From the NCBI GenBank assembly GCA_903913215.1, contig CAIWKE010000026.1, forward strand, positions 1 to 64,000: DNA of 64,000 nt, written 5' to 3'. The notes beneath the pieces were generated by a model, which saw only the letters and a list, made by a program, of their open reading frames with translations, was not told where the DNA came from and made no database searches. Origin of the DNA: an uncultured Holophagaceae bacterium. GTDB lineage: Bacteria > Acidobacteriota > Holophagae > Holophagales > Holophagaceae. Position 1 is the stretch's first letter. Every line of letters starts with the position of its first letter. A program made the translations under genes and the position numbers. This document shows positions 209-31,502 of this stretch, one piece after another.

Positions 209-523
209 GTTGACAGTGATGGCATCGACCTGCCTGAAGGGCCTTCCTGAGTGCAGATTATTTGGGCCCATGATGGCGGCGGCGAAAATAAATTTTTCGA
301 AGCATGGTTGAAAGATTTGCTTTAGACCCCTCCGAGGAGCCCTCGGCGGGGCATCCAATGGGCCCTGAATCATGATTTTCACCTTTCCTTGAAGGCCGGA
401 TTTGACCTGCCTCCGAGGACGCATCCCTCATGGACCACTTCGATAAACCTCCTCATAGCGACCGGTGTCTGGGCTTGACCCAGGATGCGACAACCGGGAT
501 GGGGAGGCCTTCGGAGGTCTGAG

Positions 524-2248
524 TTGACTCTAGATAAGTACCAATTTGAACCTGCTGGGGTCTTCATTCTGGATGCCCCTGAAGAACACGCCGAAAAAAT
601 ATCGGACGTCACTAAGTTCGTAGAGGAAAGGGGAGGAAGCTGGAAGTTCTGGCGCGGATCCCTTTCAGTCCACATAGATGGCCAGAAAGCCAATGTGATC
701 ATCTGTAAGCAGATGAAGAAGGAAGCGGAAAATCTTCTACGTACTTTCAACTACATCGTTTCAGTCAAAGATTGGGAAGAGCACACCCCCGAAGAGAAAC
801 AGAAAGCCTTGGCCGGTATCCCAGATTGCATCTATGACCTGACCAAGGACTGGTTGGCCTACGCGACCTATGGGGCGGGGAAGCAACGCCGACTGTTAGT
901 ACGACAATCTTTAGTGGCCAACACTTGGCGCGTAGTTGAAGACCCGATCGGATTCCTTGGAAGCCTTCGCTATGAGGGTGGTCTGGTTCTCGACTACCTT
1001 GATGCCAAACTGGCGGAACTACATCGAGAAGGCGTCACCAGATGGGGCATACATGCCAAGTTGGGGGTGCTGGACTTCACTCGGGCCTTCACCGAGTTTG
1101 ATCTGCCAACCCGCATCCTAGACGATAGGCGCTACTACAAGGAGCTAATCCCCTTCACCAATGACCCCAATACTCCAGCGGAGGCCTACTTCCCTTGTGA
1201 TGGTGGAGGAAATATGGCAGGCACATGGGACGCATGGGCTAGGTTTGAGACGCAGATCCCCCCAGCCCTAATCCCAACTTGGAGGGCGGCAATTCGCGGC
1301 ATCATCGATGCTAGAAACAAAAGCCGCCAGATCATCTATCTTTATGACCAAGGCTACACAGCCAAAAGTCAGGTAGCCTCTGCCATCCATACCGTCATGG
1401 AAGGCCTATCGGCCACGCTAGATGAGGATGCATTAAACTCCGCATTCTGGTTCAGCGGAATATATGGTGCCAGATTTATAAATTTGCCGGATGTAAAGGA
1501 TCAGGAGCTACTAGACAACCCCAAGATAAAGCGAATCACAGGTGGGGATTATTGCCGCCATGAGGGTAAAGGGGACACAGCCTTTGATACTCAACCCAAT
1601 TGCAGACTTATGGCAGAGGCAAACGCTCCGCAGAAGGTGGATATAACGAAACTCTCAGAGCTTCTTCGTTTCCTATTTTTCCCACTCCAGCGTAACGATG
1701 ACCCTGAATTCGTAAAGCCTTTCGTGGTGCAAGATAAGGATGGTAACCCCCTCAGATATGAGTCTGGAATCCGCAAAGGCACTTGGAAATACAAGGGCAA
1801 TCCGCAATACCAGAAAGACCTTATCGTTCAGTTCTGGGACTACATGGTTGTCTGTGAGCCAGATTACAATAGGCTCTGCCCCACTCACGGTGACATAGCT
1901 GCACCCGAAGAAATGCTGGACATGATCGCAGAGAAGTGTGCGACCGGTGAGTCAATCGCATTCTTAGAAATGATTGATAATCTGCTTGAATTTGGGAAGG
2001 ACAAGCGACTCTCAAATTTAGAGCTTCGTGCAATCCTCAAGCATAGTGATATCCCTGAGGATCAATTTACCGACATCCGCAAGAAGCTACTGGATAAGAG
2101 AGGCGTCCGTGACGGCGGAGCCGCCAAGGTCAAGGGGCAGAGATGCCTAATCGGTGTTGGCCTTCGCCCTGGCGTGACCGTCAACATGGGCAATGTGACC
2201 TTCGCCCACCAAGCAATATCCACCTCTCATGAGGACGCGGGTCTATGA
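524..2248 (+). CDS. SF3-type helicase, phage/plasmid replication, degenerate Walker A
   Basis: Probable superfamily 3 (D5/P4-like) replicative helicase of a mobile element, 574 residues. The region after residue 270 follows the SF3 order: a beta-strand and P-loop-like YDQGYTAKS (about 275-282), an acidic strand NLPDVKD (about 320-326), the family signature KRITGGD (about 336-342) and a motif-C-like asparagine in ANAP (about 367-370). The P-loop keeps Lys-Ser but the two usual glycines are Asp and Ala, so ATP binding may be altered. The N-terminal 250 residues carry no primase motif or zinc cluster that I recognise. I chose TTG at 524 because GGAGG sits 6 nt upstream; an in-frame ATG at 485 has no such site. 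The stop overlaps the polymerase start by 4 bp, so translation is probably coupled. Confidence 0.7.
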   Translation: MTLDKYQFEPAGVFILDAPEEHAEKISDVTKFVEERGGSWKFWRGSLSVHIDGQKANVIICKQMKKEAENLLRTFNYIVSVKDWEEHTPEEKQKALAGIPDCIYDLTKDWLAYATYGAGKQRRLLVRQSLVANTWRVVEDPIGFLGSLRYEGGLVLDYLDAKLAELHREGVTRWGIHAKLGVLDFTRAFTEFDLPTRILDDRRYYKELIPFTNDPNTPAEAYFPCDGGGNMAGTWDAWARFETQIPPALIPTWRAAIRGIIDARNKSRQIIYLYDQGYTAKSQVASAIHTVMEGLSATLDEDALNSAFWFSGIYGARFINLPDVKDQELLDNPKIKRITGGDYCRHEGKGDTAFDTQPNCRLMAEANAPQKVDITKLSELLRFLFFPLQRNDDPEFVKPFVVQDKDGNPLRYESGIRKGTWKYKGNPQYQKDLIVQFWDYMVVCEPDYNRLCPTHGDIAAPEEMLDMIAEKCATGESIAFLEMIDNLLEFGKDKRLSNLELRAILKHSDIPEDQFTDIRKKLLDKRGVRDGGAAKVKGQRCLIGVGLRPGVTVNMGNVTFAHQAISTSHEDAGL

Positions 2249-4425
2249 GCCAATTGGGGCCTGTCTCGTTTGATACGGAATTTAATCGGACCAACCAAGA
2301 ATTCCAGAATGTGGTCTGCGGCGTATGCATCGTAGATGAGGTTGAGTTTCGCTACTGGCTATTGGAGGTAGCGGAAAGAGATCGCTTCCATCGGGACTGG
2401 GATCGCTGGATGGCTGAAGGTCGGGCCATCATCTGCTTCAACGCGACAGCGGAAGCCCGAAGCCTTCTAGCACTCGGCTACACCTTCGTGCAGATGTATA
2501 GGTGGATTTGGGTTGACACCTATATTTGGTGGAAAATGTTGGTCCTAAGTCACCCATGCCACCGCTGGGGTGCCAAGTTTGTCACTCGTGATGGCAAGCG
2601 GGTGGCAATCCTGACGACTCCCCCACCTGATGGTGAGCTAGACGAAGACACTTTCACGGAGGATGGCTCCGGTGGGTTGGTGCTCATGAAAGCCAAGGAG
2701 CGCTACAAGGCGCATACAGCCAGTCTAGCGTCAGCCCTGGGGCACTTATTCCAGGTGGATATCAACGAGGAACACAAGGAAGCTATGGTCCATTTGATCC
2801 TTGAGGGTGGCAAGGACTTCACTCCAGAGCAACGTGAGCAGATCCTGGCCTATTGTGCTGAAGATGTGAAGTATCTACGGCCCCTGGCACGAACCTTAGT
2901 GGATGTCGTGAAGCAGGAGACAGGAGGCGCCATCGGTCTGGACCACCTCAAGTACCTTTCTGTCTATTCAGTGTGCAATGCCCAGATTGAAAACAATGGG
3001 ATTCCCCTGGATGTCAAGAAAGCCAAGATGCTATCCAGCAACATACCATTCGCAGAAGATGCCCTCATTTCCGAATGTGTTAAGGCATATCCGTTCTATG
3101 GCAAAGAGAAACTGACCTCAGAGGACAAACGGAGAGGTAAAGTCGGAACCCATAAGTGGGTTGAGAAAAAGGATAAGTTCATGTCCTATATCGATTCACT
3201 CGGTATGCGCGAAGCATGGCCCAAGACCGCCAAAGGTGGTCTTAGGGCGGATGTGGAGACCCTGAAAGATTACAGTGGTGACAAGATACTAGCCACCTAC
3301 CGCACCTGTAAGAAATCCCGCAACAACTTGCGCTACTTTGGGCCCGATAAGTGGAAAAAGATGGAAGGGAATGTTGGGGATGACTCTCGCATACGCCCTG
3401 GTCTTCGTCCCTTCGGGACCGTGACCAGCCGCCACACCCCGCAGCCCAGCAAGGGCTACATTCTCGCCATGTCGACTTGGTTGCGTACTTTGATCGAAAA
3501 GAAGGGCAGTGTGATCCTGTCCTGTGATTACTCCTTCGAGGAAATGGTCCTTCAAGCATGGGCCTCAAATTGCCAGAACCTCATGGACGCATGTCAATCT
3601 GGTGACCCATATTTGTGGCTGGCTCAATACTGTGGTGCCATCAATCCCCTATACCGCAGGACCCCTGAAGGTTATGTCAATGAGCGGGGTGAGGTTCTAG
3701 ACAAGGACGGCCAGAAATCAACTCATGCTATACGAGGCACCTACAAGAGTTTGATGTTGGGCCTAGGCTATGGAATGGGCCCCGAGTCTCTCAGCATCAG
3801 ACTCACGCAGACTCGCATGGCGAACATGCTTACTTCCGATGAGCAGGACGTCATTAGCAAGGCCAGATTTGATTCGGACCCAACGATACAAGCGCAGGCC
3901 AGCGTACTACTGGATCGAGTTCAGATTGTCCCAAATGGCGCTGGGATCCCTGCAGAGAAAAAGGCTGTCACCTATCGCGACTACCACCGCGCCACATTTA
4001 GCCAGTACTGGGATTGGCGTGAGAACTTCGTGAGAGCTTTCAGGGCGCAGGGATGGGCATCAACACCGGATGGATGGTGCGTATTTTCCTGGGTAACAGA
4101 TCAAACAGCGAAGAACTTTTACATCCAGGGGACCGGACAGACCATTTTAAGACGGGCTGTGCTTCGCTGCCTTTTGCGCGGGTTGCGCGTGGCCTCCCCA
4201 TTGCACGATGCCCTGTATGTCGAGTCCACACCCGAAAACCAGCAGGCGGATATGGCGATGCTGGTGGAAGAAATGACCCAGGCGGTAACTGACATCTGCG
4301 GCAGCCCAATCATCAGGGTTGACCCGAAGGTCATCCATACCGACTGGGAGAAGGGGGTTTCCGACTGGACGGCCGACAAACAGGAAAAGGAATTTGCTAA
4401 GCTTTCCAAGTACATGCTTTTTTGA
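2245..4425 (+). CDS. Family A DNA polymerase with 3'-5' exonuclease domain
   Basis: DNA polymerase of the PolA family, 726 residues, phage/plasmid type: it lacks the 5' nuclease domain of host Pol I. Exonuclease motif I is FDTE (10-12) and motif III is YCAED (203-207). At motif II the usual Asp is replaced by Glu (NATAE, 66-70). Polymerase motif A is CDYSFEE with Asp428, motif B is R497..K501..YG509-510, and motif C is LHDAL with His654-Asp655. All three polymerase motifs are therefore intact. The start overlaps the helicase stop (ATGA). Together the two genes form a replication module, but no primase or initiator is visible beside them. Host polA is normally larger and is unlikely to be this gene. 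Confidence 0.9.
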   Translation: MSQLGPVSFDTEFNRTNQEFQNVVCGVCIVDEVEFRYWLLEVAERDRFHRDWDRWMAEGRAIICFNATAEARSLLALGYTFVQMYRWIWVDTYIWWKMLVLSHPCHRWGAKFVTRDGKRVAILTTPPPDGELDEDTFTEDGSGGLVLMKAKERYKAHTASLASALGHLFQVDINEEHKEAMVHLILEGGKDFTPEQREQILAYCAEDVKYLRPLARTLVDVVKQETGGAIGLDHLKYLSVYSVCNAQIENNGIPLDVKKAKMLSSNIPFAEDALISECVKAYPFYGKEKLTSEDKRRGKVGTHKWVEKKDKFMSYIDSLGMREAWPKTAKGGLRADVETLKDYSGDKILATYRTCKKSRNNLRYFGPDKWKKMEGNVGDDSRIRPGLRPFGTVTSRHTPQPSKGYILAMSTWLRTLIEKKGSVILSCDYSFEEMVLQAWASNCQNLMDACQSGDPYLWLAQYCGAINPLYRRTPEGYVNERGEVLDKDGQKSTHAIRGTYKSLMLGLGYGMGPESLSIRLTQTRMANMLTSDEQDVISKARFDSDPTIQAQASVLLDRVQIVPNGAGIPAEKKAVTYRDYHRATFSQYWDWRENFVRAFRAQGWASTPDGWCVFSWVTDQTAKNFYIQGTGQTILRRAVLRCLLRGLRVASPLHDALYVESTPENQQADMAMLVEEMTQAVTDICGSPIIRVDPKVIHTDWEKGVSDWTADKQEKEFAKLSKYMLF

Positions 4426-5782: not shown

Positions 5783-6337
5783 ATGGCGCAGGTCGGATAC
5801 ATCCGGGTTAGCTCAAATGGCCAGAACACCGAGCGCCAGCTTGAGGGGGTGCTCCTGGACGAGACCTTCACGGATAAGGTCAGCGGGAAGTCCCTGGACC
5901 GCCCCGCCCTTCAGGATTTGCTCAGGTATGTTCGGAAGGGAGATGAAGTAATTGTTCACTCCATGGACAGGTTGGCCAGAAACTTGTCCGACCTGCTAAA
6001 GCTGGTCACAAACCTGACCAGCAAGGGGGTCAGGGTGAGCTTCAAGAAGGAATCACTCACCTTCACTGGTGAAGATTCACCGATGGCAACCTTGATGTTG
6101 TCAATTATCGGTGCAGTAGCTTCTTTTGAGCGATCCATGATTCATGAACGCCAGTTGGAAGGTATCGCCATCGCCAAGGCAAAAGGCATTTACAAGGGGG
6201 GAAAGCCCAAGCTCTCCCCTACCCAGGCCGAGCAGCTACGCTGCAGGGCCCAGGCGGGGGAGCCCAAGGCCAAGCTGGCAAGGGAGTACGGCGTCTCCAG
6301 GGAAACCGTCTACAGCTATCTCCGAAGCGCCAGTTGA
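5783..6337 (+). CDS. Serine recombinase, resolvase/invertase (DNA-invertase Pin-like)
   Basis: Site-specific recombinase of the small resolvase/invertase class, 184 residues. The nucleophile is Ser10 in YIRVSS with Arg8 beside it; the catalytic DRLARNL motif holds Asp62, Arg63 and Arg66. The long dimerisation helix follows (about 100-125), and a helix-turn-helix of the resolvase type occupies about 145-183. ATG at 5783 is preceded by AGGGAG; an upstream TTG in frame is less likely. The gene has its own strong promoter. Its stop lies only 24 bp from a truncated attC site, so it may mark the event that broke the cassette array. Its natural target site is not known. Confidence 0.93.
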   Translation: MAQVGYIRVSSNGQNTERQLEGVLLDETFTDKVSGKSLDRPALQDLLRYVRKGDEVIVHSMDRLARNLSDLLKLVTNLTSKGVRVSFKKESLTFTGEDSPMATLMLSIIGAVASFERSMIHERQLEGIAIAKAKGIYKGGKPKLSPTQAEQLRCRAQAGEPKAKLAREYGVSRETVYSYLRSAS

Positions 6338-6360
6338 GCTTTAGGCAATGCAGGCGGGGG

Positions 6361-6383
6361 CCGACTTGAGCGGAGGGTTAGGC
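6361..6383 (-). other. Truncated attC site (R''-L'' half only)
   Basis: On the minus strand the sequence starts GCCTAAC, then CCTCC, then GCTCAAGTCGG. It is the same arrangement as the 5' halves of the two complete attC sites at 7312-7379 and 7883-7983. The expected opposite half ending in GTTAGGC is missing; about 24 bp further on the recombinase gene ends. A degenerate TTGAGC..TTTAGGC lies at 6334-6346 and may be a second relic. This site would have been the 3' end of the cassette encoding the 301-residue protein. Confidence 0.6.
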
Positions 6384-6400
6384 TGTATGACCTATGGAAT

Positions 6401-7306
6401 TCATTGCTCTAGACGACGAAAGACACGCGGTTCACTTCTTTGACTGGTGTCCGTAAGGTTTTCAGCAAGTGGTTGTTCAGTCACTATTAATTCACCATCC
6501 TCATTGAGAACAAAAAAAAGGTCTCTATCGGAAGGACCTGGCCCTGTCCGCATCCACCATCGATTAGTGCCCCATGGGATGAAGGATCCATTTTTCCATA
6601 GAGTTGTTGTTTTGTTAGGCCGTCCAGCCGTTAGCGAAGTCGAGGCGTACCGAATCTCCATTGGTGTTCCTGGGGGTGTCGGCTCGATGTCCATGTTCCA
6701 AGTAGTGCCATGGTTGGGTAGAGACATCCACTTACCAACCAAGGCAGGGGGGGTGAGGTTATGTTTGAAATGAAATTCCAAACGATATGGACCGGGACGA
6801 GGGGTAACTCTTCTATAAATACGAGTCCGCTCTGGTCTTTCTACGACACTTTCAAGTGTAAAAACACCCTCAGTGATTTTTAGTGTGGAATCATCCACGA
6901 GAATGATCTCACCGACTATCCATGCAGAAAAAAAGCCTAAGGACAGGTAGGACCACTGTCGATCCCCCACTTCATTGAAGTGGATGTCGCGTTCTCCGTA
7001 CTCTATCGGGAGCGAGTTGCGTTTTGGAGAAAACACATCCAACGACTGGACTTCGTACAATTTGCGATCAGTAAAATACAAAAAATTGGAGTATTGACGC
7101 TGATTGGGTTCTGAAACGATCCAGGCACCTTGAAGAATTTCAGGTGGGTAGTGAACCCTGTATGATCCTATTTTTTCAGAATACAGTTCAGCCTTTTGAA
7201 GGTGGTCATTGACCTGCGCCTTGCCTGCACTGACTAAAACGAAAAGCAGAATGAAGGTTATGGCAATCTTCATTTTTATTTGCCATTTCGGATGAATAGT
7301 GTCCAT
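6401..7306 (-). CDS. Cassette-encoded secreted protein, unknown function
   Basis: Encodes up to 301 residues. A signal peptide is clear: MKIAIT followed by a hydrophobic stretch ending in SAGKAQ. ATG at 7306 starts 6 bp from the attC core, as is common for cassette genes. A second ATG at 7273 gives a more classical signal peptide, and neither has a good ribosome site. The mature part is rich in Trp and Pro with two similar halves (LQGAWIV.. near residue 60, LVGKWMSL.. near 190). This suggests a duplicated lipocalin-like or META-like fold, but I do not recognise a family. GC is clearly lower than the core genes to the right. Confidence 0.65.
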   Translation of the reverse strand: MDTIHPKWQIKMKIAITFILLFVLVSAGKAQVNDHLQKAELYSEKIGSYRVHYPPEILQGAWIVSEPNQRQYSNFLYFTDRKLYEVQSLDVFSPKRNSLPIEYGERDIHFNEVGDRQWSYLSLGFFSAWIVGEIILVDDSTLKITEGVFTLESVVERPERTRIYRRVTPRPGPYRLEFHFKHNLTPPALVGKWMSLPNHGTTWNMDIEPTPPGTPMEIRYASTSLTAGRPNKTTTLWKNGSFIPWGTNRWWMRTGPGPSDRDLFFVLNEDGELIVTEQPLAENLTDTSQRSEPRVFRRLEQ

Positions 7307-7311
7307 GGAGT

Positions 7312-7379
7312 GCCTAACGGAAGAAGTTAACCGGACCAGGCGCTTGCGCCTGGGTCTGGGTTGAACGGAGGGTTAGAGC
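7312..7379 (-). other. Complete attC site (68 bp)
   Basis: Read on the minus strand: GCTCTAAC (R''), spacer CCTCC, GTTCAACCCAGACC (L''), hairpin tip CCAGGCGCAAGCGCCTGG, GGTCCGGTTAAC (L'), CTTCTTCC and GTTAGGC (R'). L'' and L' pair with single unpaired bases left on one side, the extrahelical bases that define the strand used by integron integrases. It ends the cassette of the 159-residue lipoprotein. The CTAAC/GTTAG core boxes and symmetric L boxes are directly visible. Confidence 0.85.
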
Positions 7380-7397
7380 GCGAAGCGGGCACATGGG

Positions 7398-7877
7398 TTA
7401 ATACCTCAACCTTACCGAATCGGCCGACTCGAAGCTGGATGAATCGATTTCTCCGGGAATGCTGGACTGAAAATCCGCGAAGCCTGACTCCAAAGTGAGT
7501 CGGCCATTCTCGAAGCCCTTAACGCTGCTCAGATGGGAATACATACCGATGAACTGGTTTGACTGGTCGAAAACGAGGAGTCGATTCGTTGCCCGACATG
7601 ACCCGCCCCAGACCGTGCTGAAAAGGACAAGGTGAACGGGTTTGGCTGATTGAGTGATGCCGAGGTATTTGAACTCTTGTTCATGGAACTGGCCCTTGGC
7701 CCACAGCGGAACTTTAGTGGCTTTGAGGCTCTTCCAGAGCGAATGAATCAATGGCTTTGGGCCTATAAACCTGCGAATTGAAGCGCCGTCGCTGCAATCA
7801 GGAACTTGCTGCCCCTGTGCGGGCAGAACCGAACAGCCCAGCAGCCAGAGTGAAGCAACAATTGCGAGAGGGGACAT
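7398..7877 (-). CDS. Cassette-encoded lipoprotein, unknown function
   Basis: Encodes 159 residues. The N-terminus is a lipoprotein signal: MSPLAIVASL then LLGC with the lipidated Cys at about position 15. The mature part has two further Cys residues that could pair and no family that I recognise. The ATG lies 5 bp from the core of the preceding attC site and the gene ends 19 bp before its own attC site. This is the compact layout of an integron gene cassette with no room for a separate promoter. GC is lower than the chromosomal backbone. Confidence 0.7.
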   Translation of the reverse strand: MSPLAIVASLWLLGCSVLPAQGQQVPDCSDGASIRRFIGPKPLIHSLWKSLKATKVPLWAKGQFHEQEFKYLGITQSAKPVHLVLFSTVWGGSCRATNRLLVFDQSNQFIGMYSHLSSVKGFENGRLTLESGFADFQSSIPGEIDSSSFESADSVRLRY

Positions 7878-7882
7878 CGAGC

Positions 7883-7983
7883 GCTCTAACGTAGGAAGCT
7901 AACCGGCCCAACCGTGGACCAGGAGCAGCGGTGATGGAGTGCGTTGTTCACGGTTGGGTCCGGGTTGAGCGGAGGGTTAGGGC
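7883..7983 (-). other. Complete attC site (101 bp)
   Basis: Read on the minus strand: GCCCTAAC (R''), CCTCC, GCTCAACCCGGA (L'') continuing into CCCAACCGTG; a variable end of about 30 nt; CACGGTTGGG, GCCGGTTAGC (L'), TTCCTAC and GTTAGAGC (R'). The arms pair over more than 15 bp with three unpaired bases on one side, the extrahelical bases typical of attC. It ends the cassette of the 173-residue protein. The R''-spacer-L'' block is nearly identical to that of the other sites here, as expected within one array. Confidence 0.87.
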
Positions 7984-7999
7984 GATCAGGCGTAGGGGA

Positions 8000-8521
8000 T
8001 TAATCATTAGGCGAATGATCCCAGGCATACCCATTTCTCTTTGGGAGTAAAAGCATGCCTTCTGATTCGAAGCCACCAACCAGCAGTCGGTAGGGTTTTG
8101 GGCGAGGCGAGCCATAGAAAAGCCCTTGCCCAGCTAGGTCTAGGTATTCAGAAGCAAAGGCGGGCTTGTGAGGTTGATTGCCAGGGAAGGGCCCATTGAA
8201 GACGAGTAGTTGAAACCGCTTGGATGCGGTAACAGGGGCGATTACTACGATGGCGAGATCTTTTTGACCATCACCATTGAAGTCGCCAACCATTAAATAG
8301 GGTTGGTAATTTGGGACAGCTTTCCAGGCGCCACCAATGCCTCGTCGAAGGGCCTGGATTTGCTCTTTGCAGTCGCCACAGTCGGATTCCGTGGCTAGTC
8401 GGAAACCCGTATGACCTTTCAGCCAGGTATCGACAACCTGCTGGTGAGCCGGTTGGAGTTTCTGACCCGTCGGAGTTGCTGCGACGGATAGGACGGCTGA
8501 AAGAAAAAGAGTCGGGATCAT
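8000..8521 (-). CDS. Cassette-encoded secreted FG-GAP-like protein
   Basis: Encodes 173 residues with a signal peptide ending near AATPTG. The middle contains VGDFNGDGQKDLAIVV (about residues 77-92), the Asp-rich calcium-binding loop of FG-GAP/VCBS-type repeats, followed by a strand. Two Cys residues in SDCGDC (about 47-52) could form a disulfide or bind a metal. Such single-repeat proteins are usually exported; a precise role cannot be assigned. The ATG lies 12 bp from a lone recombination core (8533-8541) and the stop 17 bp before the attC site. Gene, core and attC together form one cassette. Confidence 0.7.
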   Translation of the reverse strand: MIPTLFLSAVLSVAATPTGQKLQPAHQQVVDTWLKGHTGFRLATESDCGDCKEQIQALRRGIGGAWKAVPNYQPYLMVGDFNGDGQKDLAIVVIAPVTASKRFQLLVFNGPFPGNQPHKPAFASEYLDLAGQGLFYGSPRPKPYRLLVGGFESEGMLLLPKRNGYAWDHSPND

Positions 8522-8763
8522 GTTGAGGGAGCGCCCCTAACTAGGGATTCTGCGACAGGGAGGTTTGCATAATTGTCGTAGAACCCCGGAAGAGAAACAT
8601 CGGAAATGCTGCCATTCGGATTCTTCCATTCTTGGGTTCTAATTACGCAAGCGTAATGATTATCGGATACAAGGGCATCGAGCGAAATTTTACAGTGCTT
8701 TGGTTTGCCATCCATTCTTGCACCACTTAGACGGCTGATGTCAGTAAACCGAGGTGCTTCCAT
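8518..8763 (-). CDS. Possible small or truncated cassette gene
   Basis: An 81-codon frame from ATG at 8763, with a TTG alternative at 8778. The stop (TGA) overlaps the ATG of the next gene and the frame reads straight through the recombination core at 8533-8541. The translation (GARMDGKPKHC, GFYDNYANLPVAES) looks protein-like but matches nothing I know, and no ribosome site is visible. It may be the 3' end of a cassette gene fused to the core after loss of its attC, or a chance frame. Confidence 0.35.
   Translation of the reverse strand: MEAPRFTDISRLSGARMDGKPKHCKISLDALVSDNHYACVIRTQEWKNPNGSISDVSLPGFYDNYANLPVAESLVRGAPST
8533..8541 (-). other. Isolated integron core site
   Basis: GTTAGGGGC on the minus strand matches the R' core of the neighbouring attC sites and sits 12 bp before the ATG of the first recognisable cassette. 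No L boxes or partner R'' box are found to its right. It could be the recombination point of an attI site or the surviving end of a deleted attC. Confidence 0.5.
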
Positions 8764-8808
8764 CGCATGAAGGGCCAATCTGCTGCGGCAGGCAAGCCAA
8801 GCAGGGGG

Positions 8809-9027: not shown

Positions 9028-9116
9028 CTAACCAGGGTGTAAGAAAAAAATGTAGCCAAAATGTAGCATAATAAAAATATAATCAATTAAATATTGAAAA
9101 TAAAGGTTAACACCCC

Positions 9117-9194
9117 GGCAAGATCGTCCGCCGGGCCCTCAAGGCCGAGGCCCTCGGGCAGGATCCCGGGGATCTGAGCACGCTGGCGGATTAG
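9117..9194 (+). pseudogene. 3' remnant of an acyl-CoA synthetase (AMP-forming)
   Basis: Codons from 9117 read GKIVRRALKAEALG then PGDLSTLAD and a stop at 9192-9194. This matches the C-terminal signature of AMP-forming acetyl/acyl-CoA synthetases, where GKI-x-RR carries the catalytic lysine and GDxSTL is the usual tail. A TAA stands at 9108-9110 in the same frame and the DNA to the left is AT-rich. The composition returns to the high-GC backbone exactly here. The rest of the gene is absent, so the island replaced or displaced it. Confidence 0.6.
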
Positions 9195-9481: not shown

Positions 9482-10714
9482 ATGCCCCGCCGCCGCCTTG
9501 CCGTCCTCCTCCTCCTGGGTTTCGCCTCGGGGCTGCCGCTCTACCTCACAGGGTCGACGCTGAAGGCCTGGATGACGGATGGGGGTTTGAGCCTGGGCAC
9601 CATCGGACTCTTCAGCCTCGTGAGCCTGCCCTACAGCCTGAAGGTGTTCTGGGCGCCGGTCCTGGACCGCTACGGCATCGCACTCTTCGGGCGGCGCCGG
9701 GCCTGGATGCTTGGCATGCAAGTGCTCATGGCGACGGCTCTGGTGCAGATGGCCTTCAGCCAGCCGCGCCTGGGCCTCACCCGCATCGCGGTCATGGCCT
9801 TCTGTCTGGCCCTCACCAGCGCCACCTTTGACATTGCCGTGGATGCCTGGCGCGCTGAGGCGCTGGACCAGAAGCACCTGGGTCTGGGCAACAGCATCCA
9901 CATCGCGGCCTACCGGGTGGCCATGCTGGTGAGCGGAGGCTTGGCCCTCATCCTTGCCCAGGCTTTCGGCTGGCGCTTCACCTACCTGGCTATGGCGCTG
10001 CTCACGGCCCTGGGCATGGTGGGCACCTGGATGGCCACCAACACGGACGACTTGGCGCCAGCGCCCCGCACCTTCATGGAGGCCGTGACCGGGCCCCTTC
10101 TGGACCTGCTGAAGCGGCCGGGCATCGGCTACTTGCTGGCCTTCGCCGTGTTCTACAAGCTGGGGGACTGGCTGGCGGATTCCATGACCATCCCTTTCCT
10201 GCTGCGGGGCATGGGCTTCACCAAGATGCAGATCGGCACCGTTCAGAAAACCACGGCCATGGTCGCCATCATCATCGGCGGTCTCATCGGGGGCTGGCTG
10301 CTCACCCGCATAAGCCTGCGGAAGGCCCTGTGGATCTGCGCTTTCGTGCAGATGGGCAGCATCCTCGGGTTCTGGGCCATCTCTATGCTGGGTCGTCACC
10401 TGCCTCTGCTGGTGGCCGCTAACACGCTGGAGAACCTGGCCTTCGGCATGGGGGGCAGCGCCTTCGCGGCCCTGCTCATGGGCAGCTGCAATCGCTCCTA
10501 TACCGGCACCCAGTACGCCCTCTTCAGCGCCCTCATGGCGCTGCCCCGCTCCATCTTCTCGGGCCTCACGGGCTTCATGGCCGACTGGTACGGCTGGAAG
10601 CTCTACTTCCCCATCTGCGCCGCCGCCGCCATCCCGGGCATGCTGCTGCTGTTGATGTACAGCCGCTGGGGGCTGCCGGAAGGGGAAGATCTGGGATTGC
10701 CGATCGATCAGTAG
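9482..10714 (+). CDS. AmpG-like major facilitator permease
   Basis: Inner-membrane MFS transporter of the AmpG type, 410 residues, about 12 hydrophobic segments. The first helix, LGFASGLPLYLTGSTL, and the following loop with PYSLKVFWAPVLDRYG match the family's conserved N-terminus. AmpG imports anhydro-muropeptides for cell-wall recycling. In this protein the substrate is inferred from family only, and other AmpG relatives may carry different solutes. The gene stands alone and converges on the rhodanese-rluD-lgt operon. It is the first intact backbone gene to the right of the island. Confidence 0.85.
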   Translation: MPRRRLAVLLLLGFASGLPLYLTGSTLKAWMTDGGLSLGTIGLFSLVSLPYSLKVFWAPVLDRYGIALFGRRRAWMLGMQVLMATALVQMAFSQPRLGLTRIAVMAFCLALTSATFDIAVDAWRAEALDQKHLGLGNSIHIAAYRVAMLVSGGLALILAQAFGWRFTYLAMALLTALGMVGTWMATNTDDLAPAPRTFMEAVTGPLLDLLKRPGIGYLLAFAVFYKLGDWLADSMTIPFLLRGMGFTKMQIGTVQKTTAMVAIIIGGLIGGWLLTRISLRKALWICAFVQMGSILGFWAISMLGRHLPLLVAANTLENLAFGMGGSAFAALLMGSCNRSYTGTQYALFSALMALPRSIFSGLTGFMADWYGWKLYFPICAAAAIPGMLLLLMYSRWGLPEGEDLGLPIDQ

Positions 10715-28697: not shown

Positions 28698-31502
28698 ATG
28701 CCGCCCAGCCAGGCCGATTCCTCCAACTCCGGGAGCCCCAGGTTCCCCGGGGCCGAAAAGTTGGCCCCAGGCACCGAGATCGGCCGCTTCCAGATCCGCC
28801 ATCTGCTGGGCCAGGGCGGCATGGGGGCCGTGTACCTGGCCTGGGACCCGGTGCTGGAGCGGAAGGTCGCCCTCAAGGCCATCCGCTTGGGGCAAGATGG
28901 CCAGGTGGCCAGCCAGGGCCGCTTCCGCCGCGAGGCCATGGCCCTGGCCCAGCTCAACCACCCCAACGTCTGCCAGGTCCACGACTGGGTCGAGGCCCGG
29001 GGGAGCGCCTTCATCGCCATGGAGTTCATCGAAGGGGAAACCCTCTCGACCCTGGCGTCCAGCATGGACCTGCACCACAAGCTGAAGGCGCTGCGCGACA
29101 TCGCCAAGGCCTTGGAGGCCGCCCACGCCAAGAACATCGTCCACCGGGACCTGAAGCCCAGCAATGTCATGATCGACGCCGCAGGGCAGGTGAAGGTGCT
29201 GGACTTTGGTCTGGCCAGGCTGGTGGACGCCAGCTACGCCGACAGCCAGGTGAGCACCGACGCGGTGCCCAACCTCTCGCTACTGGCGGCTCAGCAGGAG
29301 GCCGGTGTCACCCAGGTCGGGCCCAGCCCCGAGGCCCGGGAGCTGACCCAGCTGGGCTCGCCCACGCCCAGCGCAGGTTCTCCCTCCATTTGGGGCGAAC
29401 TCACCGAGATGGGGACCTTCATGGGCAGTCCCACCTACGCCTCGCCCGAGCAGATGAAGGGCAAGCGTGTGGGTCCCCCCAGCGACATCTTCTCCCTGGG
29501 CGTGCTGGCCTGGGAGTTCCTCCTGGGGGACCACCCTTTCCCGGGCGAAGGACGGGAGCGCATGACCGCCACCGCGGAGGGCGCCCTCAAATCTCTGCGC
29601 GGCCGCAAGCTGCCCCGACGCGTGGGTGCCCTGTTGCGAGCCATGCTCCAGAAGGAAGCTGGCCATCGCCCCAGCAGCCAAGAGGTGGCTGCGGTCCTGA
29701 GCCGACAGCTTGCCCACACCCCCGCGGCCTGGTGGGTGGCGGGGGGCCTGGCTGCGCTGCTGTTGATCCTGGGGCCCGGCTACTACTTTTTTGGTCGCAG
29801 CATCATCGCGGATCTTGGGCGGGAGCAGACGCCCCGCATGGCTGTGATGCCCATCCGTAACCTGACCGGAGACGGCAGTCTGGATGCCATGGTGGGTGTG
29901 GGCATGACGGAGCTGCTGGCCAATGCCCTGCATGGTTCGACCCGCCTGGCGGTGGTGGAGCCGGAGGCCGTGAGCCGGGTCATCACAGGCTTTCGCCTGA
30001 ATCCCGCCGAAGCCCTGGAGCCCACCGGTCAGACCCGCATCGCCCAGGCCCTGGGCGCCCGCCTGGTCCTCCGCGGCACCCTCAGCGAAGGACCAGGCGG
30101 CACCTCGCACCTGCTCAATTACGAGCTAGTGGATCTGGGGGGGCGCATCCGTGCTGCGGGCACGGTGACGGCCCCACGCATGGGCGCCTTCGCCCCCTAT
30201 GCCCTGGTGGACCCCGCCGCCCAGGACCTGCTGCACAAGGTGGATCCGCTGCGCTCCACCACCATCCGGAACCAGCCCATTCCCGCAGAGGTCTTCGCAG
30301 CCTACGCCAACGGCAAGGCCCTCTTCCTCAAGGGGGACTTCAAGGCCAGCGAGCCGTTTCTGCGAGAGGCCTCCATGCAGGCCCCGGGGTTTTCCGGCGC
30401 CGTCTCTGGCTACGCTGCCTGCCTTCGGCGCCTGGGGCGGGACCAGGCGCCCGCCATCGCCAACTGGGCCCTCATGTCGGCCCGGGCCACGGGCGACCGC
30501 TGGGCTGAGGTGCGAGCTCTGGGCCTCAAGGCCTACCTGGCCAAGGACCTGGGACACCTAGACGAGGCCCAGCGGTTGCGCGAGGCCTCCCTGGCCCTGG
30601 CTCAAGAGATCGGGGACAAGGACGGCCAGACCATCGCCACCAACCACCTGGGTCTCATCGCTGCCGAGCGGGGCCGCAGCGTGGAGGCCACAGAATTTTA
30701 TGAACGTTCCCTGCGCCTGAGCCTGGAGACCGGCGACCAGGTCTACCTCTCCCTGGCCCAGAACAACCAGGCCAACCTGGCCCTGAAGCATGGAGACCTG
30801 GGCAAGGCCGAGGCCCTCTACCGGAAGAATCTCAAGCTGCAGCAGGATCTGGGCAACCGCTGGGGCGAGGCCCTGGCCCTCAACAACCTGGGGGTGGTCG
30901 CCCTCATGGCCCGGGATCTGGGGGGTGCTGAGGGCCTGCTGAGTCGTGCCCTCCAGGCGCGGGAGACGCTCGGTGACAAGGGCGGCCAGATCTCCAGCCT
31001 GCGCAACCTTGGCATCCTGGCCCTCATGAAGGGGCAGATCCAGGATTCTGGGGATTTCCACGGCCGGGCCCTGCGGTTGGCCCAGGCCGCGGGCCTCAAG
31101 ACCGTGGAGGCGGAGTGCCAGTTCTACGGCTCGGAGCTGAACCGGCTGCAAGGACGCTTCAAGGAGGCCCGGGAGGGCTACGAGCATGTCCTGGAACTGT
31201 TGCCCGAGGGGGTCACACCTGAGGTCCGGGTCAACGCCAAGGCCGCCCTGGCGGAGTGCCTCCTGCGCCGCCCCAGGCCCGACCTCCAGGCGGGGGCGAA
31301 GCAACTCGCTGATTTACCTGCCGGCGATACCGATTCCCCCTACCTGCACCGGGCCAAGGCCTGGTCCGCCTTTCAGGTTGGCCAGCGGGAACTGGCCCTT
31401 GCAGAAGTGGCCAGGGCCCTGACCGACGCCCGCAGGCAGGCCCCGGAAATCCGGGGCGAGCTGGAGGCCATGCGGGTGCAGTTTTCAGGTCGGGCGGACT
31501 AA
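28698..31502 (+). CDS. Serine/threonine protein kinase with TPR domain
   Basis: Membrane-anchored Hanks-type kinase of 934 residues. The kinase domain (about 28-330) is complete: glycine loop LGQGGMGAVY, Lys60 in VALKAI, catalytic HRDLKPSN with Asp151, DFG at 169-171 and the SPEQMKG activation segment. A transmembrane helix lies near 340-360 (VAGGLAALLLILGPGYYFFG, 20 residues). The external part has a TolB/adenylate-cyclase-associated fold (MAVMPIRNLTGDGSLDAMVG onward) and 8-10 tetratricopeptide repeats (about 550-900). Such kinases are numerous in Acidobacteriota. The start is ATG at 28698, 13 bp after the PH-like gene. The substrate is unknown. Confidence 0.92.
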   Translation: MPPSQADSSNSGSPRFPGAEKLAPGTEIGRFQIRHLLGQGGMGAVYLAWDPVLERKVALKAIRLGQDGQVASQGRFRREAMALAQLNHPNVCQVHDWVEARGSAFIAMEFIEGETLSTLASSMDLHHKLKALRDIAKALEAAHAKNIVHRDLKPSNVMIDAAGQVKVLDFGLARLVDASYADSQVSTDAVPNLSLLAAQQEAGVTQVGPSPEARELTQLGSPTPSAGSPSIWGELTEMGTFMGSPTYASPEQMKGKRVGPPSDIFSLGVLAWEFLLGDHPFPGEGRERMTATAEGALKSLRGRKLPRRVGALLRAMLQKEAGHRPSSQEVAAVLSRQLAHTPAAWWVAGGLAALLLILGPGYYFFGRSIIADLGREQTPRMAVMPIRNLTGDGSLDAMVGVGMTELLANALHGSTRLAVVEPEAVSRVITGFRLNPAEALEPTGQTRIAQALGARLVLRGTLSEGPGGTSHLLNYELVDLGGRIRAAGTVTAPRMGAFAPYALVDPAAQDLLHKVDPLRSTTIRNQPIPAEVFAAYANGKALFLKGDFKASEPFLREASMQAPGFSGAVSGYAACLRRLGRDQAPAIANWALMSARATGDRWAEVRALGLKAYLAKDLGHLDEAQRLREASLALAQEIGDKDGQTIATNHLGLIAAERGRSVEATEFYERSLRLSLETGDQVYLSLAQNNQANLALKHGDLGKAEALYRKNLKLQQDLGNRWGEALALNNLGVVALMARDLGGAEGLLSRALQARETLGDKGGQISSLRNLGILALMKGQIQDSGDFHGRALRLAQAAGLKTVEAECQFYGSELNRLQGRFKEAREGYEHVLELLPEGVTPEVRVNAKAALAECLLRRPRPDLQAGAKQLADLPAGDTDSPYLHRAKAWSAFQVGQRELALAEVARALTDARRQAPEIRGELEAMRVQFSGRAD

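Follow-up and report, generated by a model that had tools for sequence, protein, structure and literature searches.

A probable decayed integron that keeps its attI site in an uncultured Holophagaceae bacterium

Does a group of gene cassettes that stands without an integrase represent the remains of an integron, or was there never an integron at that place? Clusters of attC sites lacking an integron-integrase form the CALIN category of IntegronFinder (PMC9024848), and both CALINs and the loss of intI have already been described (PMC9024848, PMC8618304, PMC12444791). The origin of such arrays (off-target insertion, intI loss or rearrangement) is usually left open, because there are hardly any descriptions of attI sites other than those of class 1; such sites are poorly known and are not searched by IntegronFinder (PMC9024848). 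Acidobacteria are listed among the integron-bearing phyla (PMC8618304), and an attC model has been made for them (PMC8352920); for integrons of Geothrix or Holophaga, we found no more than passing mentions in the open-access literature. Here, we analysed a 64 kb stretch of DNA (the window) on contig C26 of a draft Holophagaceae genome (41 contigs, 95% complete), in which a first-pass annotation had proposed an integrase-less cassette array.

The ORF list and the sequence reveal three tandem genes on the minus strand of window positions 6343-8541 with inverted-repeat sites between them, as had been claimed. From right to left, the array comprises the following features:

7890..8540, minus strand: cassette 1, attI-proximal; core-to-core interval with gene 8000-8521 and its own attC
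8000..8521, minus strand: cassette 1 gene, 173 aa, with an apparent export signal and an FG-GAP-like GDFNGDG motif
7884..7982, minus strand: attC site 1, 99 nt, complete (R''-L''-L'-R'), 84.4 bits, E 6.1e-21 (the tool itself describes its E-values as rough; bit scores are unaffected)
7318..7889, minus strand: cassette 2; core-to-core interval with gene 7398-7877 and its own attC
7398..7877, minus strand: cassette 2 gene, 159 aa, with an apparent export signal and without family match
7312..7378, minus strand: attC site 2, 67 nt, complete, 65.5 bits, E 9.3e-16 (likewise rough)
6343..7317, minus strand: cassette 3, cut at its attC; a GTTAGGC core at its start, then the gene, R'' and half an attC
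6401..7306, minus strand: cassette 3 gene, up to 301 aa (alternative start 7273), with an apparent export signal
6343..6383, minus strand: third attC, left half (R'' and L'' arm), right half missing; no match with the covariance model

The gene starts had been placed within 12 bp of a recombination core. Measured from the R' core, the distances are about 5, 6 and 13 bp, so that this holds except for the attI-proximal cassette, which slightly exceeds the limit. The sequence block CTAACCCTCCGYTCAA, said to be common to all sites between R'' and L'', indeed occurs in three exact minus-strand copies (6366-6381, 7361-7376 and 7965-7980). With up to 3 mismatches allowed, it has 4 matches in the window against 0.65 expected, a number reached in none of 100 shuffles.

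We then scanned the window with an attC covariance model trained on 22 attC sites from other genomes of the same family, none of them from this genome. Among the training sites, 94.7% of cells conform to pairing of the assumed stems, and 32 double-sided changes were counted, compared with 11.1 in shuffles. The model found exactly two complete attC sites in the 64 kb window, both strong matches and 506 bp apart. The model alignments and the relatives' pair counts give both sites R'', L'', L' and R' with unpaired bases on one arm. Thus, the covariance scan proposed in the first-pass annotation succeeded, with a model built from relatives rather than IntegronFinder's own, and the claim that the sites have all their parts stands for two of them, whereas the third consists of its first ~41 nt. 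These two neighbouring sites reach the number of at least two close attC sites by which a CALIN is recognised, here as counted with the relatives' model and not with that of IntegronFinder. Single-stranded DNA folding is likewise in favour of the hairpins: the bottom (plus) strand gave z values of -3.8 for the longer attC and -1.9 for the shorter one. Moreover, a 66-nt attC nearly identical to attC site 2 adjoins the attI site of an integron of the same lineage (attI-B) in a relative (G046, L166).

Sites that lie between genes and fold well could also be transcription terminators, or repeats conserved between unrelated genes. This explanation can practically be dismissed: the sole terminator-like pattern of the array region (7580-7597) lies inside the cassette 2 gene and not at an attC, the sites carry R''/R' cores with bulged bases on one arm and a core complementarity specific to each cassette, and they have hundreds of counterparts in intI-linked arrays.

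In a genuine array, the sequence that follows a recombination point is already part of the next cassette, with complementarity to the R'' of that same cassette. The first bases of cassettes 1, 2 and 3 are complementary to the R'' of their own attC over 7, 10 and 7 bases, respectively; for example, cassette 2 starts with GTTAGAGCGC, which pairs perfectly with its own R'', GCGCTCTAAC. The same pattern is seen in 168 cassettes of relatives, whose mean match is 8.25 to their own site versus 6.8 to the left-hand site.

All three cassette products start with apparent export signals, recognised by eye from the sequence without a predictor. The 173-aa product matches FG-GAP with an E-value of 0.003, which does not pass the cut-off, and homologues 60-63% identical to it occur in 3 genomes (G005, G010 and G021). 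The homologue in G005 (contig C10 of that genome, L277) is itself a cassette with attC sites on both sides; near those in G010 and G021, no attC was found. The predicted structure of the 173-aa protein has a mean pLDDT of 67 and was therefore too uncertain for a structure search. Neither the 159-aa nor the 301-aa product has a family match, and the product of cassette 3 has no relatives in species-representative genomes and no solved structure.

The DNA to the right of the first cassette bears on the origin of the array. The first-pass annotation had ended the element at 8541, which proved too short, as an attI site runs on to about 8735:

8536..8735, minus strand: attI site of integron lineage B, by homology and position; recombination point G|TT between 8541 and 8540

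Positions 8536-8729 are 68-76% identical over ~195 bp to DNA in five genomes of the family (G019, G022, G015, G046 and G039); the homology covers a shorter stretch in G036, and related DNA is also found in G041. Conservation in the alignment reaches as far as the GTTAGG core, at the G|TTAGG junction, past which the sequences vary. Homologous DNA adjoins every intI of clade IntI-B that was found in the relatives. In G022 and G015 it lies between a full-length intI-B and the first cassette, the intI of G022 being divergently transcribed about 230 bp beyond attI, and attI-like cores adjoin the IntI-B genes of L187 and L188. By sequence search, G022 falls in the same genus as the genome of the window. 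The four intact IntI-B form one clade (support 1.0), apart from other Holophagaceae integrases in the tree. Judging from this homology, position and conservation, 8536-8735 is the attI site of the array. An ORF at 8518-8778 overlaps this site and was rejected as a gene upstream of the array, because it contains stops in relatives.

It should be noted that three loci (L056, L108 and L055) have ORF-poor units between attI and the first cassettes, which end in a second attI-like core (GTCCAA..TAGTTAGGC). These units are possibly attI-type cassettes or tandem attI sites.

The gene expected beside such a site is missing. No similarity to IntI-B was found in the 64 kb window, in agreement with the claim that no intI is visible there, and the 380 bp between attI and a duplicated gene end (described below) hold no intI remnant. 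The proposed whole-genome search for intI, with TIGR02249 as the cut-off for an integron-integrase, found none over the cut-off in the 41 contigs (95% complete). Other integrase matches considered as intI were XerC/D-like or phage-type recombinases. Apart from these, one 58-residue intI remnant lies on another contig, and 46 of 77 genomes of the family hold an intI over the cut-off. Decay of the gene is also seen in relatives: G019 has a truncated intI-B with a stop, and in G036 the gene is spread over two frames.

Elsewhere in the genome, two further arrays were found:

C3:403796 on (L035 7800-8130): intI remnant (first ~58 residues), adjoined by a thioredoxin-like gene, then by an attI-like site and decaying cassettes
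C27:146100-147600 (L034 6100-7600): second array without an integrase; two complete attC, an attI-like site and, at the end, half an attC

On C3, the 58-residue piece is the N-terminal part of intI and adjoins the attI-like site and cassettes; the array on C27 has the same attI-like site, and no intI was found there. As the C3 and C27 arrays are also without an intact intI, the genome therefore appears to hold three decayed integrons. In the whole genome, the covariance model gave eight attC matches in all; single sites away from arrays were observed at L039 5422-5520 (C11, complete) and L173 6293-6387 (C9, partial). In several genomes of the family, arrays have a dozen or more attC sites.

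Could intI be present in the organism and missing from the assembly? The genome is a draft in 41 contigs and 95% complete, and drafts inflate CALIN counts according to the authors of IntegronFinder 2.0 (PMC9024848). However, the array does not lie at a contig end, and an unbroken sequence with no intI in it runs from attI at 8536 to the neighbouring genes (9482 and beyond); the gene is thus absent from the very place where it belongs. On C3, again within a contig, the integron has a mere fragment of intI. We therefore regard an assembly gap as very unlikely.

A second possibility is off-target insertion, in which an IntI from elsewhere placed cassettes at a secondary attG-like site that was never an integron platform. 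This is one of the proposed origins of CALINs (PMC8618304), and isolated attC sites do occur in this genome, one complete on C11 and one partial on C9. Nevertheless, the 195 bp that precede cassette 1 have their homologue in lineage-B integrons, where it lies between intI and the first cassette, and the homology ends at the same base; this disfavours a random insertion site and leaves this origin with a slim chance at best.

Homology to the DNA beside intI-B, ending at G|TTAGG, points instead to a decayed integron. In our judgement, the array is very probably such a remnant: attI-B, two complete cassettes and one truncated cassette are present, and intI is absent from its place. A lineage-B integron that lost intI would account for it most economically. 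The term CALIN fits by attC counting and is incomplete in that attI is kept, indicating a former complete integron and not free-standing cassettes; of the components of a complete integron, attI is present by homology and position and the intI gene is absent. A once working lineage-B integron would have captured circular cassettes by attC x attI recombination through its IntI, the intI-B gene would then have been deleted, and the far end of the array would have been cut by whatever event put a resolvase gene beside it. As the genome has no detectable IntI, we expect a static array with a frozen cassette order, which only an IntI acting in trans could mobilise.

The cut end is marked by the broken third attC, which is 95% identical over 41 nt to the consensus attC of relatives before homology ends. 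Genes to its left include:

5783..6337, plus strand: serine recombinase (resolvase/invertase) gene, abutting the broken attC and ending 5 bp from it
485..4425, plus strand: primase/helicase-like gene, then family A DNA polymerase gene, by profile matches

The serine recombinase matches Pfam Resolvase (2e-35) and HTH_7 (3e-9) and a PHROG DNA invertase (6e-59). The gene is present in a single copy, and no extra copies of the resolvase region, which might reveal the ends of an element, were found in the genome. The primase/helicase-like gene has DUF5906-like and PHROG primase matches, and the polymerase gene DNA_pol_A and PHROG DNA polymerase matches; these genes may be cargo or a replication module of an island. 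The polymerase has one distant phage match and no plasmid or viral-contig relatives. A PADLOC match to a polymerase model was not taken as evidence of a defence system. Farther right in the window, ARAGORN called a tRNA-Trp of unusual length at 29054-29151, which has no Rfam support and is probably a false call.

Beyond attI, the sequence suggests the edge of an inserted element. Two features are relevant, one of them on another contig:

9115..9194, plus strand: acetyl-CoA-synthetase-like gene, duplicated 3' end; putative right attachment site (attR)
C10:731-1858 (L184), minus strand: tyrosine recombinase gene; immediately follows the intact acetyl-CoA-synthetase-like gene

Positions 9115-9194 share 74 of 80 bases, and the encoded residues, with the terminal part of the intact copy (C10:1988-3916). 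In relatives, an intact 643-aa acetyl-CoA-synthetase-like gene is followed by an MFS gene, the counterpart of the one at 9482 of the window; G011 and G034 represent the empty site, with the gene intact and the same MFS gene downstream. In the window, only the last 80 bp of the acetyl-CoA-synthetase-like gene precede the MFS gene, and GC content steps up at the junction from about 0.52 to 0.60-0.70. The C10 recombinase matches a PHROG integrase (1e-20) and Pfam Arm-DNA-bind_3 (2e-8), an arm-type DNA-binding domain. A duplicated gene end, a recombinase and a GC step are what one typically sees where an island has entered a gene at its 3' end. The proposed island has direct-repeat att sites at both ends, one of which restores the target gene, and a site-specific recombinase of its own near one end. 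We consider it probable, with somewhat lower confidence than for the decayed integron, that the array is located at the right-hand end of an island in the 3' end of the acetyl-CoA-synthetase-like gene, where the tyrosine recombinase encoded on C10 would have inserted it.

C10 and C26 are separate contigs, both ending inside the proposed island; as they are not joined, we infer this part. With the two halves on different contigs, the copied gene end could also stem from a local duplication or rearrangement, the array then being an ordinary chromosomal remnant. We find this unlikely, given that the duplicated 3' end is coding and matches in protein sequence, that a recombinase gene lies directly behind the intact copy, that the GC step falls exactly at the junction and that gene order is uninterrupted in relatives. 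It is also conceivable, with a rather low probability, that the locus is a mobile island of attI plus cassettes without its own intI, the cassettes being exchanged with related Holophagaceae integrons by the recipient's IntI in trans.

Read as a decayed integron, the array resembles CALINs (PMC9024848) in having at least two neighbouring attC and no intI nearby, and differs in its recognisable attI, which that category ignores. Similarly, chromosomal integrons of Xanthomonas have lost or truncated the ancestral integrase in some lineages and kept the arrays as CALINs (PMC12444791), whereas the window array comes from Holophagaceae (Acidobacteriota), is probably island-borne and belongs to one of two integrase/attI lineages within one genus. 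Cassettes in an integrative element are also known from SGI1 with In104 (PMC3285670), in which respect the two are alike, the continuity of the island being presumed here; the window array differs in that it has neither intI nor known resistance cassettes, and in its target, an acetyl-CoA-synthetase-like gene.

The closest counterparts are the chromosomal integrons of Holophagaceae (G022, G015 and others), which share the same attI-B and attC block and, in one case each, the near-identical 66-nt attC (G046) and a homologous cassette gene (G005); unlike the window array, G022 and G015 carry intI-B at full length. Intact relatives make the attI site recognisable here, so that loss of intI can be deduced for an individual array. 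These relatives offer a clear comparative system, with two integrase/attI lineages in one acidobacterial genus and integrases that are intact, broken or absent. To the first-pass annotation, our analysis adds the attI site, the integron lineage and a probable island; the array is a further example of an element of known kind, and its history is unusually well documented. In two further loci, L091 and L103, several cassettes of nearly equal size (~440 bp) start with GTTAGGCCTCGTTCGCC or a close variant and recur within and between arrays.
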